A stretch of 41,203 nucleotides of DNA, taken from contig PHFX01000164.1 in NCBI GenBank assembly GCA_007618135.1, positions 1 to 41,203 on the forward strand, in the 5' to 3' direction. Made by a program: the position numbers and the translations under genes. This stretch comes from Candidatus Brocadia sp. WS118 (GTDB lineage Bacteria; Planctomycetota; Brocadiia; Brocadiales; Brocadiaceae). The notes beneath the pieces are model-generated. The model saw only the letters and a list, made by a program, of their open reading frames with translations, was not told where the DNA came from and did not search any database. Of the stretch, positions 16,994-22,311 are shown piece after piece (positions within the stretch are counted from its first letter, which is position 1; each line of letters begins with the position of its first letter).

Positions 16994-19603
16994 ATGAGAT
17001 TTGATAAATTTACCATCAAGGCGCAGGAAGCGGTACAGGAAGCCCAGGAACTTGCTGAATCCAAAAGGCAGCAACAGATATTGGCGGTGCATCTACTGGA
17101 AGTACTGATAACTCAGGAACAGGGCATTGTAATGCCGCTGCTGAAAAAATTAGGGATTGATACGGATGCTGTTCTCGAGAAGGTAATGAACGCGGTCAAC
17201 AAATTACCACAAGTAAGCGGATCGGGAGCGCCTGGCCAGGCGTATGTGAGCGCAGAACTTCGGGATACCTTTAATCTCGCCTGGGAAGAAGCAAGCAAAC
17301 TGAAGGACGAATATGTAAGTACAGAACATCTGTTGCTGGCGCTCGCGGGTCAAAGGAATATTTCCGCAGGGAGAATTCTCAGTGAGGTGGGTCTTACCAA
17401 GGAATCAATTTATACGGCATTGAAGGAGATCAGAGGCAGCCAAAGGGTTACCGACCAGAATCCGGAAGAAAAGTATCAGGCGCTTGAACGCTACAGCAAA
17501 GATCTTGTTGAATTGGCACGAAAGGGAAAGCTTGATCCGGTTATTGGGCGTGATGATGAGATACGGCGTGTCATACAGGTTTTATCCCGGAGGACGAAGA
17601 ATAATCCCGTACTGATTGGTGAACCTGGGGTGGGAAAGACAGCCATTGTAGAGGGTCTGGCCCAGCGTATTGTTAATGGCGATGTGCCGGAGAGTCTGAA
17701 AAACAAACGGGTCATGTCTTTAGATATGGGCGCCCTGATAGCAGGGACAAAATACCGGGGCGAATTCGAAGATCGTCTCAAGGCAGTGCTGAAGGAGGTA
17801 AGTGAAAAAGAAGGCCAAATTATCCTCTTTATCGATGAACTACATACGGTGGTGGGGGCGGGGGCAGCTGAAGGCGCAGTAGATGCATCCAATTTATTGA
17901 AACCGGCGCTTGCACGCGGTGAATTGCGCTGCGTGGGGGCCACCACCCTGGATGAATACCGGAAGCATATTGAAAAGGACGCCGCATTAGAACGACGTTT
18001 CCAGCCGGTGTACGTTGGAGAGCCATCCGTAGAGGATACCATTGCAATCCTGAGGGGATTGAAGGAACGGTATGAACTGCACCATGGGGTACGCATTAAA
18101 GACTCAGCGATTGTCGCCGCAGCCACGCTTTCCCAGCGATATATTTCAGACCGGTTTTTACCTGACAAGGCCATTGATTTGATCGATGAGGCGGCATCGA
18201 AGCTGAGGATAGAAATTGACAGTATGCCTGTTGAACTCGATGAGATTGAACGGAAGAGTATGCAGCTGGAGATTGAAAAAGAGGCGCTGAAAAAAGAAAA
18301 AGATACCGCATCAAAACAGCGCATGGAAAAAATTGATAAACAGCTGTCAGATTTAAAAGAAGAATCGGGCGCGCTTCGTGCCCAATGGGAAAATGAGAAA
18401 AAAGTTATCAAGGAGATACAGGAGATTAATGCAAGAATTGATCACGCCAGAATCGATGAGCATACAGCGCAAAGAGAGGGTAATTTAGGGAGAGTAGCGG
18501 AGATACGGTATGGAGTGATCAGGGAATGTGAACAGAAACTGAAACAGAAACACGCTGAATTGCAGGAATTACAAAAGAATAAATCGCTCCTGAATGAAGA
18601 AGTGGATGCCGATGATATCGCCATGGTTGTCTCCAAATGGACCGGGATTCCCGTCACACGTATGTTGGAAGGGGAGAAGGAAAAGCTTTTGAAGATGGAA
18701 GACCGGCTCAGGGAACGGGTCGTTGGACAGGATGAAGCTATTCATGCGGTTTCAAATGCCATCCGGCGTGCACGCGCCGGGCTTCAGGATCCCAATCGTC
18801 CCATAGGTACTTTTTTATTCCTCGGTCCCACGGGAGTGGGGAAGACTGAACTATGCAAGGCACTTGCCGCCTTTTTGTTTGATAGTGAAAATGCGATGGT
18901 GCGTATTGACATGTCAGAATTTATGGAACAACACTCGGTGGCACGACTCATCGGCGCGCCTCCTGGATATGTCGGGTATGAGGAAGGCGGACGGCTGACC
19001 GAGGCAATCCGGCGAAGGCCATACTCCGTTATCTTATTTGATGAGGTGGAGAAAGCCCATCGTGATGTGTTTAATATCTTGTTGCAGGTATTTGATGATG
19101 GACGATTAACTGATGGGCAAGGTAGAACGGTGGATTTTAAAAATACCATTATCGCCATGACCTCAAACATTGCAAGCCAGTGGATACAGGATCTTACCGG
19201 CCCTGAAAATGAGGAGGAGCTGAGAAGTCAGGTGAAACAGGCGTTAAAAGAGGCGTTCAGGCCAGAATTTCTTAACCGCATAGACGAAACCATTATTTTC
19301 CACGGTTTGTCAAAAGAGATGATCGGACAGATTGCTGAGATACAGTTAAGAGAGCTGCAAAAGCGATTATCGAAGGGTAACTATCGTTTAACGGTTACGA
19401 ACAGGGTAAAGGAGAATCTGGTACAGGAGGGTTTCGATTCACACTTTGGCGCCAGACCACTTAAGCGTACGATACAGCAGATGATTGAAAATCCGCTCTC
19501 CATGGAGATTCTGGAGGGTAAGTTTGCGGAGGGTACGGAGATTAATGCTGATATGAAAAACGGAAAGGTGGTTTTCACTGCCGGTGAGTTGATAACCGTA
19601 TAA
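16994..19603 (+). CDS. clpB: ATP-dependent disaggregase ClpB
   Basis: ClpB is a hexameric Hsp100 that threads aggregated proteins and works with DnaK. The 869 residues show all expected parts: Clp_N repeats (1-145), AAA1 with Walker [10 protein letters not shown] (about 208-216), the middle coiled-coil M-domain (about 400-530), AAA2 with Walker [10 protein letters not shown] (about 609-617), Walker [12 protein letters not shown], and the ClpB C-terminal domain ([19 protein letters not shown]). The tyrosine pore loops [10 protein letters not shown] and [11 protein letters not shown] are present, and no ClpP-binding loop is apparent. GAGGA lies close to the ATG. No CIRCE element is seen upstream, so HrcA control is not indicated. 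Confidence 0.98.
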
Positions 19604-19737: not shown

Positions 19738-20238
19738 ATGGAGCGAGTTGTGAAGAGAAAAATAATTACAGGTTTATGTGTTACTTTTTTGTTTGCCGTG
19801 GTTCTCAGTATTGTGCCGATGATTTCCTTCGCCGGGGAAACAGTTAAGAAAATAACCCTGGCGGAATTCAATACGTTACTTGAGAGTAATAAAGGCAAGG
19901 TAGTGGTTGTTGATCTGTGGGCGACATGGTGCCCACCCTGCAGGAAAGAGATACCGGGATTCATCAATCTTTATAATAAACATAAGGGGAACGGTGTAGA
20001 GATCATTGGAATCGCCTTTGATGAAAATGGGTTGGAAGCGGTTCCGCCGTTCATAAAAAAAATGGGGATTACTTATCCCGTTTATCTTGGAGGGGGTGAT
20101 ATTGCCGAGTCATACGATCTGCAAGCGTATCCAACTACGATCATGTATGGTAAAAATGGCAAGGTGGCTAACAAACATATTGGTTATGTGTCGGAAAAAG
20201 AATTTGATGATGAGATCGGTATACTGTTAAAGAAATAA
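19738..20238 (+). CDS. Exported TlpA/ResA-like thioredoxin
   Basis: The 166-residue protein (162 if GTG 19750 is used) is a thiol-disulfide oxidoreductase. A signal peptide or anchor (IITGLCVTFLFAVVLSIVPMISFAG) directs it across the membrane. The redox motif WCPPC is at 64-68 and the cis-proline in AYPTT at 132, with the TlpA-type insertion GVEIIGIAFDENGLEAV between. WCPPC is typical of TlpA/ResA proteins that reduce apocytochrome c or other exported proteins. GGAG six bases before GTG 19750 makes that start at least as likely as ATG 19738. It follows clpB by about 130 bases on the same strand, and its own promoter is not clear. Confidence 0.9.
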   Translation: MERVVKRKIITGLCVTFLFAVVLSIVPMISFAGETVKKITLAEFNTLLESNKGKVVVVDLWATWCPPCRKEIPGFINLYNKHKGNGVEIIGIAFDENGLEAVPPFIKKMGITYPVYLGGGDIAESYDLQAYPTTIMYGKNGKVANKHIGYVSEKEFDDEIGILLKK

Positions 20239-20634
20239 AAAAAATATTGGCTGGATTTAAATTTCTGTTATGCAATGAAAATCCTTGCTACAGACTATTT
20301 TGTGGCAACCACAGAGTAAGCTTTCCTGCTTATTCCCGCTTCATTCCATCCACCCCTCCCAGATAATAGTGTGACATGATACACTTGTGTGTCGATACAT
20401 ATGTGTGTCATGGCACACTTTTTCTTGCTTCTTTTCAATGATCTACTGTATTCCTAAATCGCTGTAACTAACCCCTAATGTTGTATTACTGATTATAAGT
20501 AGAATTAAATTGTCTTTTGTTCTCTTTATGGCACGTTTTTTGATAAATAACCTATAAAGGAACTACTATTTTGACTGTTGTGGCATTTTTCCATAAGAGT
20601 GTGTATAAGAAGAGATACAATGGGGGGAAATTTT
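20239..20634. promoter_or_regulatory. Long leader/intergenic region upstream of a small ORF
   Basis: No gene is seen. The region holds the tandem near-palindromes at 20369-20418 and an AT-rich segment. TTGATA near 20539 with TACTAT about 18 bases on could be a weak promoter. TGGCAC followed after five bases by TTGAT, just before the AT-rich part, partly resembles a sigma-54 site but lacks the key -12 GC. Confidence 0.35.
20369..20418. promoter_or_regulatory. Three tandem near-palindromic operator-like repeats
   Basis: Three related units start at 20369 (GTGTGACATGATACAC), 20387 (GTGTGTCGATACAT) and 20403 (GTGTGTCATGGCACAC). Units 1 and 3 are near-palindromes centred on CATG with GTGT/ACAC arms. 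Spacing is 18 and 16 bases, close to two helical turns, as expected for cooperative binding of a dimeric regulator. The nearest genes are the thioredoxin upstream and the small ORF at 20635 downstream. Confidence 0.6.
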
Positions 20635-20874
20635 ATGAGCAATAAGGGTGTTATCTGTGAAGAATTCATTACAGATGGTATAAACAGAGAGATGTGTAAT
20701 GCTTACGAGAAAATATCATTGCCTATATATCCCAGTTTGTATGAAATTAAGACATTTTGCAAAACATCAAATCATCTGAGATGCCCTATACGAAACTTTT
20801 CCACGGTAATTAATTTATCCCGGACAGAGACATCAGAAATTGAAAATGAATCTCGTTGCCAATATCAAAAATGA
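20635..20874 (+). CDS. Small Cys-containing hypothetical protein
   Basis: The 79-residue frame from ATG 20635 (an upstream in-frame ATG lies at 20620) is preceded by a run of six G and AAA, a possible ribosome site. The sequence has CEEFITDGINREMC near the N-terminus, then YEIKTFCKTSNHLRCPI. The Cys/His pattern (C...C...C-x-T-x2-H-x2-CP) resembles small metal-binding or FeS-like proteins and C-terminal tails I have seen in Deltaproteobacteria and Planctomycetes, but I cannot name a family. It stands alone on the plus strand, downstream of the tandem palindromes, and faces the convergent aminotransferase gene 40 bases away. Confidence 0.5.
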   Translation: MSNKGVICEEFITDGINREMCNAYEKISLPIYPSLYEIKTFCKTSNHLRCPIRNFSTVINLSRTETSEIENESRCQYQK

Positions 20875-20914: not shown

Positions 20915-22018
20915 TTATGGGGGTTGCCGGGATATGCTGTTGAGGATATTCACGCCGCGGTGAATGGTTTCTTCAGAGGCTGCGTAAGAAATCCGGAAGT
21001 GGGTATGGTGTTCAGAAAAGACGCTACCGGGAATAATGAGGAGATTTTTTTTGATAGCAGATGCTACAAACTCTTCATCGGTGCCCCAGGGCACCTGAGG
21101 AAAAAAATAAAATGCCCCGCCAGGTTTTACTATGCGAAAATTGTCCTTTAACCCCTCATACATCAGATCCCTTTTCTTTTTGTAGCTTGCGAGGTATTTG
21201 CTCAGGTCGGCGTCTAAAGATTTTGCTATGGCATATTGAGCGGGAGCAGGCGCACAAACAAAAGTATATTGTTGTAATTTGATCATCTCGCGAATTATGT
21301 GCGCGGGTCCTGCTGCATATCCCATTCTCCAGCCTGTTACAGCGAAGGATTTGGAAAACCCGTCGAGGAGCAGGGTATTTTCATAGTATCTGCCAATACT
21401 CTCAAACTCATGATGATAATCGAAATCGTGGTATATCTCGTCTGAAATAACGAGGAGATTGTGTTCTTTAGCGAGGTCTGCAATATCTTTTATATCCCGG
21501 CTGGTACACATGATCCCTGTTGGATTGGCAGGGCTATTCATGACGAGTACTTTGGATTTTTTGGTGAGGCAGGGCCGGATACGTGCAGCCGTCAGTTGAA
21601 AATCGGGATAGGTATCAATGAAAACCGGTTTGCCGCCGCAGAAATTTACTAAGTGTTTATAGCTTACAAACGCGGGGTCGGGTATGAGTACCTCATCCTC
21701 AGGATTAATCAGCACCATAAAAGCCAGGGTTAATGCCCCGGAGACTCCCGATGTGATCAGGATATCCTCTGCGTTTACTCCACGTTGATTCCGGAGTCGT
21801 TTGAGTAATCCGTCGCGGAGTTCAGCAATGCCCTGGGTAACGGTATATTTATTGGCGCCGTCTTTAATGGCTTTAATAGCCTCAGTTTTGATCTCCTCAG
21901 GAACGTCAAAATCCGGCTGACCTATACTGAGGTTCACCGGATTTCGCATTTTTTGTGCCAGATCAAAGACCTTTCTTATTCCCGAGGAGTCGATTTTCGA
22001 CATCCTGTGGGCGATCAT
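20915..22018 (-). CDS. PLP-dependent class I/II aminotransferase, aspartate-aminotransferase-like
   Basis: This 367-residue fold-type I enzyme moves amino groups between amino and keto acids. Landmarks are NLSIGQPDFDVP (substrate Gly/Gln region, about 29-40), NSPANPTG (161-168), the cofactor-binding Asp193 and Tyr196 in SDEIYHDF, the PLP lysine K223 in GFSKSFAVTGWRMGY, and the Arg in FRISYA that binds the substrate carboxylate. It belongs to the AspC/AlaT-like subgroup; the substrate is not determined. Its ATG overlaps the stop of the upstream small basic protein (TAATG), so the two are translationally coupled. They lie in one operon with the SPOR-like protein, transcribed leftwards from the promoter at 23239-23267. 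Confidence 0.9.
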   Translation of the reverse strand: MIAHRMSKIDSSGIRKVFDLAQKMRNPVNLSIGQPDFDVPEEIKTEAIKAIKDGANKYTVTQGIAELRDGLLKRLRNQRGVNAEDILITSGVSGALTLAFMVLINPEDEVLIPDPAFVSYKHLVNFCGGKPVFIDTYPDFQLTAARIRPCLTKKSKVLVMNSPANPTGIMCTSRDIKDIADLAKEHNLLVISDEIYHDFDYHHEFESIGRYYENTLLLDGFSKSFAVTGWRMGYAAGPAHIIREMIKLQQYTFVCAPAPAQYAIAKSLDADLSKYLASYKKKRDLMYEGLKDNFRIVKPGGAFYFFPQVPWGTDEEFVASAIKKNLLIIPGSVFSEHHTHFRISYAASEETIHRGVNILNSISRQPP

Positions 22019-22311
22019 TATTTCTTGGCCTTTTCCTTGGCGGCAGCTGCTGCTGGTGCACTACCTGTTGCTGAAGGTGTTCCTGCTGCTGGTGCGGCAC
22101 CGGTTGGTGTTGCTTCAGCCGTAGTCTCCTTTTTCTCTGACTTAGACTTTCGTTTTATCTTGACGCTTTTCACTTTGGGAATACCAAATACAGACATTGT
22201 TGGATCCCATTTTCCCTCTCCCTTAAGCAATTTGATACGCTCAATCCTGGTGAATACATTTCTGGGCCTTACCAACTTGCCCTTCGTTTTCAAACTTTTA
22301 TCAACACTCAT
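22018..22311 (-). CDS. PVC-superphylum small basic protein
   Basis: The 97-residue protein has a conserved N-terminal half (SVDKSLKTKGKLVRPRNVFT, then RIERIKLLKGEGKW and SVFGIPKVKSVK). This matches the small basic protein family (TIGR04137 from memory) reported as a signature of Planctomycetes, Verrucomicrobia and Chlamydiae. From about residue 58 it has a lysine stretch and a low-complexity Ala/Pro/Thr tail ending in KEKAKK, longer than the usual form. It is strongly basic, so nucleic-acid or ribosome binding is likely, but the molecular role is not established. AGGAGG six bases before ATG 22311 supports the start. It is the middle gene of a three-gene operon. Confidence 0.85.
   Translation of the reverse strand: MSVDKSLKTKGKLVRPRNVFTRIERIKLLKGEGKWDPTMSVFGIPKVKSVKIKRKSKSEKKETTAEATPTGAAPAAGTPSATGSAPAAAAAKEKAKK

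Follow-up and report, generated by a model that had tools for sequence, protein, structure and literature searches.

The window analysed here, a stretch of 41,203 nucleotides from Candidatus Brocadia sp. WS118 (contig C222 of the 5.04-Mb genome G000), carries on its forward strand a ClpB-type chaperone ATPase (16994-19603; named by eye from its sequence and lying within a conserved gene order), a TlpA/ResA-like thioredoxin-fold protein (19738-20238) and a protein of 79 amino acids with four conserved cysteines (20635-20874), for which neither Pfam nor NCBIfam gives a match. A small basic protein that matches TIGR04137 and has a long Ala/Pro-rich tail is encoded on the reverse strand (22018-22311). 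Between the thioredoxin-like gene and the four-cysteine gene lies the feature studied here, a 50-bp block at 20369-20418 that the first-pass annotation had read as three tandem near-palindromes with CATG centres, serving as a cooperative operator for a dimeric regulator.

The three palindromes are real, as the outer two match 27 of 28 defined bases and the best score among 300 shuffles of the whole window was 22. The claimed distances of 18 and 16 bp between unit starts are likewise found in the sequence. The CATG centre, however, belongs only to units 1 and 3, and the middle unit is a different, shorter palindrome. Unit 1, the distal 16-bp palindrome (20369-20384), follows GTGTGNCATGNCACAC and reads GTGTGACATGATACAC in the window, and unit 3, the promoter-proximal 16-bp palindrome (20403-20418), reads GTGTGTCATGGCACAC; both are defined from the sequence and from the alignment of copies described below. 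Unit 2 (20387-20400) reads GTGTGTCGATACAT, a degenerate form of the consensus TGTGACGTCACA / GTGTGACGTCACAC. None of the units has a strand. The spacers are TT between units 1 and 2 and AT between units 2 and 3, so that the three dyads lie 17 bp apart. Within the window, GTGTNNCATGNNACAC is matched exactly at two places, each of them inside the element. The element strand is predicted to fold at -29.4 kcal/mol (z -5.5), and its inverted repeat ends with a T run.

A sigma-54-type -24/-12 promoter, TGGCACGTTTTTTGAT, is predicted on the forward strand at 20529-20544, 110 bp from the element, and the 79-residue protein is its predicted target. The thioredoxin gene, whose proximity had been pointed out, is indeed the upstream neighbour, but it is set aside as a target because it ends upstream of the element.

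The same arrangement recurs in other species, and recurrence of this kind in front of orthologues had been named beforehand as support for an operator. Relatives of the 79-residue protein occur in nine of 33 genomes of the family, its own included, and in G005, G006, G004 and G003 the relative stands behind an element with a promoter 108-109 bp away, although only one element unit is intact in G003. Across these five orthologous loci from five species, the gap between element and promoter is 108-110 bp while most of the remaining sequence has diverged, and in their alignment the promoter and the proximal unit stand out as conserved islands. The thioredoxin motif WATWCPPC lies upstream in G005, G006 and G004 as it does in the window, and is not within the stretch compared for G003; the G004 relative has a TAG within the match. 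No element was found near the relatives in G009, G041 and G038 or near the second copy in G006; the comparison for G010 consisted of an unoriented scan. In G002 an element is likewise present behind the thioredoxin gene, but the genome has no match to the 79-residue protein.

Copies of the element and their promoters

The block in the window is one copy of a repeated element of about 58 bp. A BLASTN search with 111 bp found it in 11 of 29 genomes, namely ten of the 11 in the genus (G000 among them) and G012. We aligned 59 of 61 copies (alignment A1), leaving out L014, which has a single unit, and L046, which is incomplete; the consensus is AAAAGTGTGnCATGnCACACTTGTGTGACGTCACACTTGTGTGnCATGnCACACTTTT. 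Mean conservation is slightly highest in the promoter-proximal unit (1.61 bits, versus 1.57 and 1.35 in the other two). The outer units are spaced by 34 bp in 45 of the 61 copies and by 32-35 bp in 58, an arrangement of three adjacent dimer-type sites like that known for NorR. Only two of the 61 copies overlap an open reading frame of at least 150 amino acids, compared with 76% of 3798 random positions, and the placement of the element is thus far from random.

Brocadia genomes hold about 5-14 copies each and those of genus g6 about 50. These values correspond to 10-28 rows per Brocadia genome in a sequence-only model (G010, with two rows, is the exception) and to 96-111 rows in g6, since rows count both strands and copies amount to about half of them; the 96 rows of G031, for example, mark 52 distinct places. 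The g6 copies are more degenerate, and four regulator paralogues were seen in G031 (L129-L168). Over the whole order, at least one row is present in 42 of 62 genomes, mostly of families f1 and f4, and none in any of the nine genomes of family f2. A pattern scan of contigs returned 27 stretches, from Brocadia or Brocadiaceae, two Scalindua, one Nitrospirae, two Desulfuromonadales and one Planctomycetia isolate, and a scan of viral contigs gave no match. The two Desulfuromonadales stretches (L073 and L079) were set aside as members because they match only half of the element model. Both contain a palindrome of comparable form, GTGTGGCATGCCACAC, together with a -24/-12-like site, and the gene downstream resembles, by eye, one for a chemoreceptor (L073:5599-5649 and L079:2167-2193). 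Two identically scoring copies in one genome (G005:C1:14022 and 36343) may have arisen when the region around them was duplicated, perhaps recently.

Promoters of the sigma-54 type are linked to the element in a directional manner. When GG-N9-TG cores were counted around the 61 copies, which involves no tuned matrix, 43 pointed away from the element and 10 toward it at distances of 100-129 bp; cores pointing away rose from a background of 1-6 per 10 bp to 8, 18 and 17 over this interval, and those pointing toward it stayed flat at 2-4 per 10 bp. With a -24/-12 matrix (score at least 12.5, distance 30-300 bp), a site points away in 47 of the 61 copies and toward in three, compared with 10.6% of 2351 random placements, and 14 of the 61 have no promoter site above this threshold. 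Because the matrix was shaped on these 61 copies, sets from outside carry more weight. Among the best 40 of the 52 elements of G031, a g6 genome that took no part in the tuning, the promoter points away in 25 and toward in none (random placements, 8.2% of 1676), with a looser spacing, and 30 further copies outside the model, from 13 genomes, have a promoter pointing away in 23 cases and toward in two. Many of the compared copies are orthologous, and these counts are hence not independent. Most promoter sites of the 61-copy set lie 108-124 bp from the element. Distances cluster near 108-111, 117-124, 131-137 and 140-145 bp, about one helical turn apart, which suggests helical phasing, although circular statistics give no sharp peak (R 0.43-0.58 over periods of 10-13, increasing with the period). 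The sigma-54 factor itself, RpoN (PF04552), is encoded in 31 of the 33 family genomes, including that of the window.

A candidate NtrC-type activator

In several Brocadia genomes, genes for a histidine kinase and an NtrC-type response regulator directly precede a copy of the element, and a gene for a PAS-HD-type protein follows it. The candidate regulator, for example that at L011:2147-3949, consists of a receiver domain, a PAS domain, a sigma-54 activation domain (PF00158) in which GAFTGA can be read, and an HTH8 domain (PF02954); it scores below the cut-off of all 25 NCBIfam models shown. In the Scalindua locus L091, one copy lies upstream of the start of the regulator gene and another behind its stop.

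Regulator and element also occur together among genomes. More than four element rows are present in 21 of the 23 family genomes that encode the regulator (E≤1e-120) and in none of the ten that do not. The contrast is repeated within genera, between G010 and the other Brocadia, between G035 and G013, and between G034 and G032/G033, all of which have sigma-54. At the level of the order the association has exceptions: G023 has 13 element rows without a regulator at E≤1e-120, and G024, G048, G049 and G060 encode regulator homologues and have no elements. In addition, one TGA and one TAA interrupt the regulator gene of G004, a genome that retains its elements.

Further evidence comes from a scan that makes no use of the motif, in which three palindromes were sought in the 420 bp behind the stops of sigma-54 activator genes and compared with 60 shuffles (L097 and L100 were excluded). 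A triple palindrome exceeding all shuffles was found in loci of Brocadia, g6, g4 and Scalindua (L096, L098, L099, L101, L102, L104, L105, L107, the second regulator of L109, L110 and L091). The scan did not exceed all shuffles for L103, the second regulator of L106, L108, the first regulator of L109, L111-L114, L116 and L125, was marginal for L117, L118 and, among other activators, L009, and failed for the other activators at L012, L030, L061, L063 and L039. Regulators whose recognition helix reads SRRT[LIV]YRK pair with TGTGNCATGNCACA half-sites. Paralogues with the helix SRSTFYRK, seen in three genomes (L107, L110 and L111), adjoin triple sites with TGTCYCATGRGACA-like, GTGTC-type half-sites; that of L111 is similar but weaker, and its triple does not rise above shuffles. 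Since altered half-sites lie beside paralogues with an altered helix, these cases, although only three, point to the NtrC-type regulator as the reader of the element. Two further classes were distinguished by eye and are not used as evidence: a DRKT class (L113 and L116), whose GAATTC-centred site does not exceed shuffles in the motif-free scan, and the class of L117, which exceeds them only slightly (22.0 versus 21.0).

Promoter spacing, co-occurrence with the regulator and the half-sites of the paralogues agree, and we therefore favor, with a probability of roughly 0.84, the reading that the element is the enhancer (UAS) of an anammox sigma-54 regulon, bound by three NtrC-family dimers that form a hexamer. 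The earlier proposal of a cooperative operator for a dimeric regulator is thereby retained as to a conserved multi-site element and revised as to its type, which would be an enhancer with three predicted dimer sites, separated by about 110 bp from a sigma-54 promoter downstream. From the sequence evidence we infer binding, assembly, activation and a signal as follows. Each palindrome would bind one dimer of the receiver-PAS-AAA+-HTH8 regulator, which is encoded beside a sensor histidine kinase. Upon a signal, presumably relayed by phosphorylation, six subunits would form a ring-shaped ATPase, which, by looping of the DNA, would reach and remodel sigma-54 polymerase at a -24/-12 promoter located some 110-145 bp further downstream. 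The outcome in the window would be that the 79-residue four-cysteine protein is switched on.

Arm covariation and alternative explanations

At their variable bases, the two outer palindromes covary with each other across the central dyad, and there is no such covariation inside either palindrome. In A1, columns 10-50 are complementary in 33 of 59 copies (20.3 in shuffles) and columns 15-45 in 29 of 59 (18.5), and no such complementarity was found within units. In 34 copies outside the model, a set that includes L205 and L089 (the same place) and four pattern-scan records, and in which L179 is the place of L078, the two pairs are complementary in 23 and 17 copies, respectively. In the 28 of these copies that come from G handles and have 34-bp spacing, the counts are 18 and 15; after four near-identical copies were dropped, they are 14 of 24 (z 2.6) and, without reaching significance, 11 of 24 (z 0.9). 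The arm covariation thus reappears outside the model in weaker form. Coupled changes were analysed in the 46 of the 59 A1 copies that are full length with 34-bp spacing, and one at a conserved base (columns 6-53) would fit template switching. Opposite spacer bases, in A1 only, are non-complementary more often than expected, and the two spacers of a copy are preferentially alike, either TT or AA. As a first guess, copying between the arms by template switching may explain the covariation. A reading of the 50-bp block as one two-fold structure rather than three sites, either a cruciform or hairpin that acts in regulation or a pair of arms matched by template switching, would also account for this symmetry; we regard it as unlikely. 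Under this reading, with dyads 17 bp apart (about 1.6 turns, roughly 220-240 degrees), the three dimers could wind around the DNA with nearly three-fold screw symmetry, in which case the enhancer might run along the axis of the ring rather than on one face.

Comparably doubtful is the possibility that the enhancer is as proposed and a different sigma-54 activator reads it, either a 452-residue response regulator (helix SRMTLYRK) or a 518-residue PocR-type activator. The element does lie upstream of the genes for these activators, at about 341-407 bp in L009, L063, L012 and L030 and at 713 bp in L061. However, the 452-residue regulator (E≤1e-100) is present in only 10 of the 33 family genomes and missing from the element-rich G031, G013, G004, G003 and G006, and the sequence following its gene in L012, L030, L061 and L039 contains no triple above shuffles. 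We rejected it as the sole activator because of this distribution. Far less probable than either is a dispersed palindromic repeat of the REP or MITE kind that has spread between genes without a regulatory role. The many similar intergenic copies per genome, the strong inverted repeat and the covarying arms would all be expected of such a repeat, but not a preferred orientation and distance relative to -24/-12 promoters. Moreover, several species retain copies at orthologous positions, so that placement is not independent of position, no flanking similarity extends beyond the element by eye, and viral contigs lack it.

An intrinsic terminator or RNA hairpin following the thioredoxin gene has very little to recommend it, despite the stable fold and the T run that ends the inverted repeat. 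Copies lie upstream of promoters generally, also between divergent genes (as in L022), an A/T run is present at both ends of the element, and opposite spacer bases fail to pair in most A1 copies. An operator for a regulator of the CRP/FNR family is similarly remote. The TGTG...CACA arms resemble a CRP site, yet the CRP consensus is TGTGA-N6-TCACA, with 8 bp between TGTG and CACA, whereas the A1 consensus, TGTG-N6-CACA, has 6 bp, and CRP would leave the three fixed sites and the sigma-54 promoters unexplained. A CRP homologue has been described for a Brocadia metagenome-assembled genome, and a Brocadia CRP regulon has been predicted with the E. coli matrix (PMC8510549). Arms of this type could give false hits in such a prediction.

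Related systems and predicted targets

Among the papers listed by a literature search for sigma-54/RpoN enhancers or regulons in anammox bacteria, none concerned such a system. The closest precedents come from other bacteria. In E. coli, three NorR enhancer sites upstream of the sigma-54 promoter of norVW are essential for activation and act as a scaffold for higher-order oligomers (PMC2941729, citing Tucker 2010), and this three-site enhancer for a hexameric activator provides a precedent for the anammox element. NorR, however, senses NO through a GAF domain, whereas the candidate has receiver and PAS domains and scores 332 with the NorR model NF003451 (cut-off 476); the half-sites also differ, and here one fixed block of three palindromes in 50 bp is found at many promoters. 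PrsK-PrsR, which with RpoN controls PEP-CTERM genes in Proteobacteria, is a histidine kinase with an NtrC-like regulator whose phylogenetic profile matches that of motif 1 plus a sigma-54 site at surface-protein genes (PMC1569441, PMC9850573). The candidate reaches 362.1 bits with the PrsR model TIGR02915, below its cut-off of 502.6, the gap between element and promoter is 32-92 bp in that system and about 120 bp here, and the Brocadia targets do not look by eye like PEP-CTERM proteins; a PEP-CTERM-like end was noticed by eye in one downstream reading frame of G031 (L167) and in none of the Brocadia targets. CbrB of Pseudomonas, an NtrC-type regulator, also acts at sigma-54 promoters through three upstream subsites (PMC6296734), but these lack palindromic symmetry, vary in spacing and lie 20-25 bp apart along a single face of the helix, in contrast to the 17-bp dyad spacing found here.

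Promoters were linked to the longest downstream open reading frame, not to annotation. Of 27 proteins linked in this way and scanned (20 proteins plus L009, L010, L012, L013, L027, L041 and L049), 17 have a Pfam match and ten have none at the thresholds used. The matches are caspase with PEGA (two), autotransporter (two), TonB receptor, matrixin, SBBP propeller/DUF7948 (two), kelch, RCC1, IgGFc-binding, Ig-like/SIBA-E, NHL, haem peroxidase, polysaccharide synthesis and two sigma-54 activators. The predicted targets thus appear to be mainly secreted, outer-membrane and cell-surface proteins, along with some other regulators. Such a theme fits the view of sigma-54 as a controller of the bacterial exterior (PMC3162934).

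The element, its promoter, a candidate regulator and the targets together make up a putative regulon that can be read from sequence. To our knowledge, there are no genetically tractable pure cultures of anammox bacteria, whose gene regulation is poorly understood. The pairs of paralogues in which helix and half-site differ would offer a natural test set for the choice of DNA by NtrC-type proteins. Moreover, because most of the predicted targets with a Pfam match are surface, secreted or polysaccharide-related, the regulon may bear on the formation of granules and biofilms.
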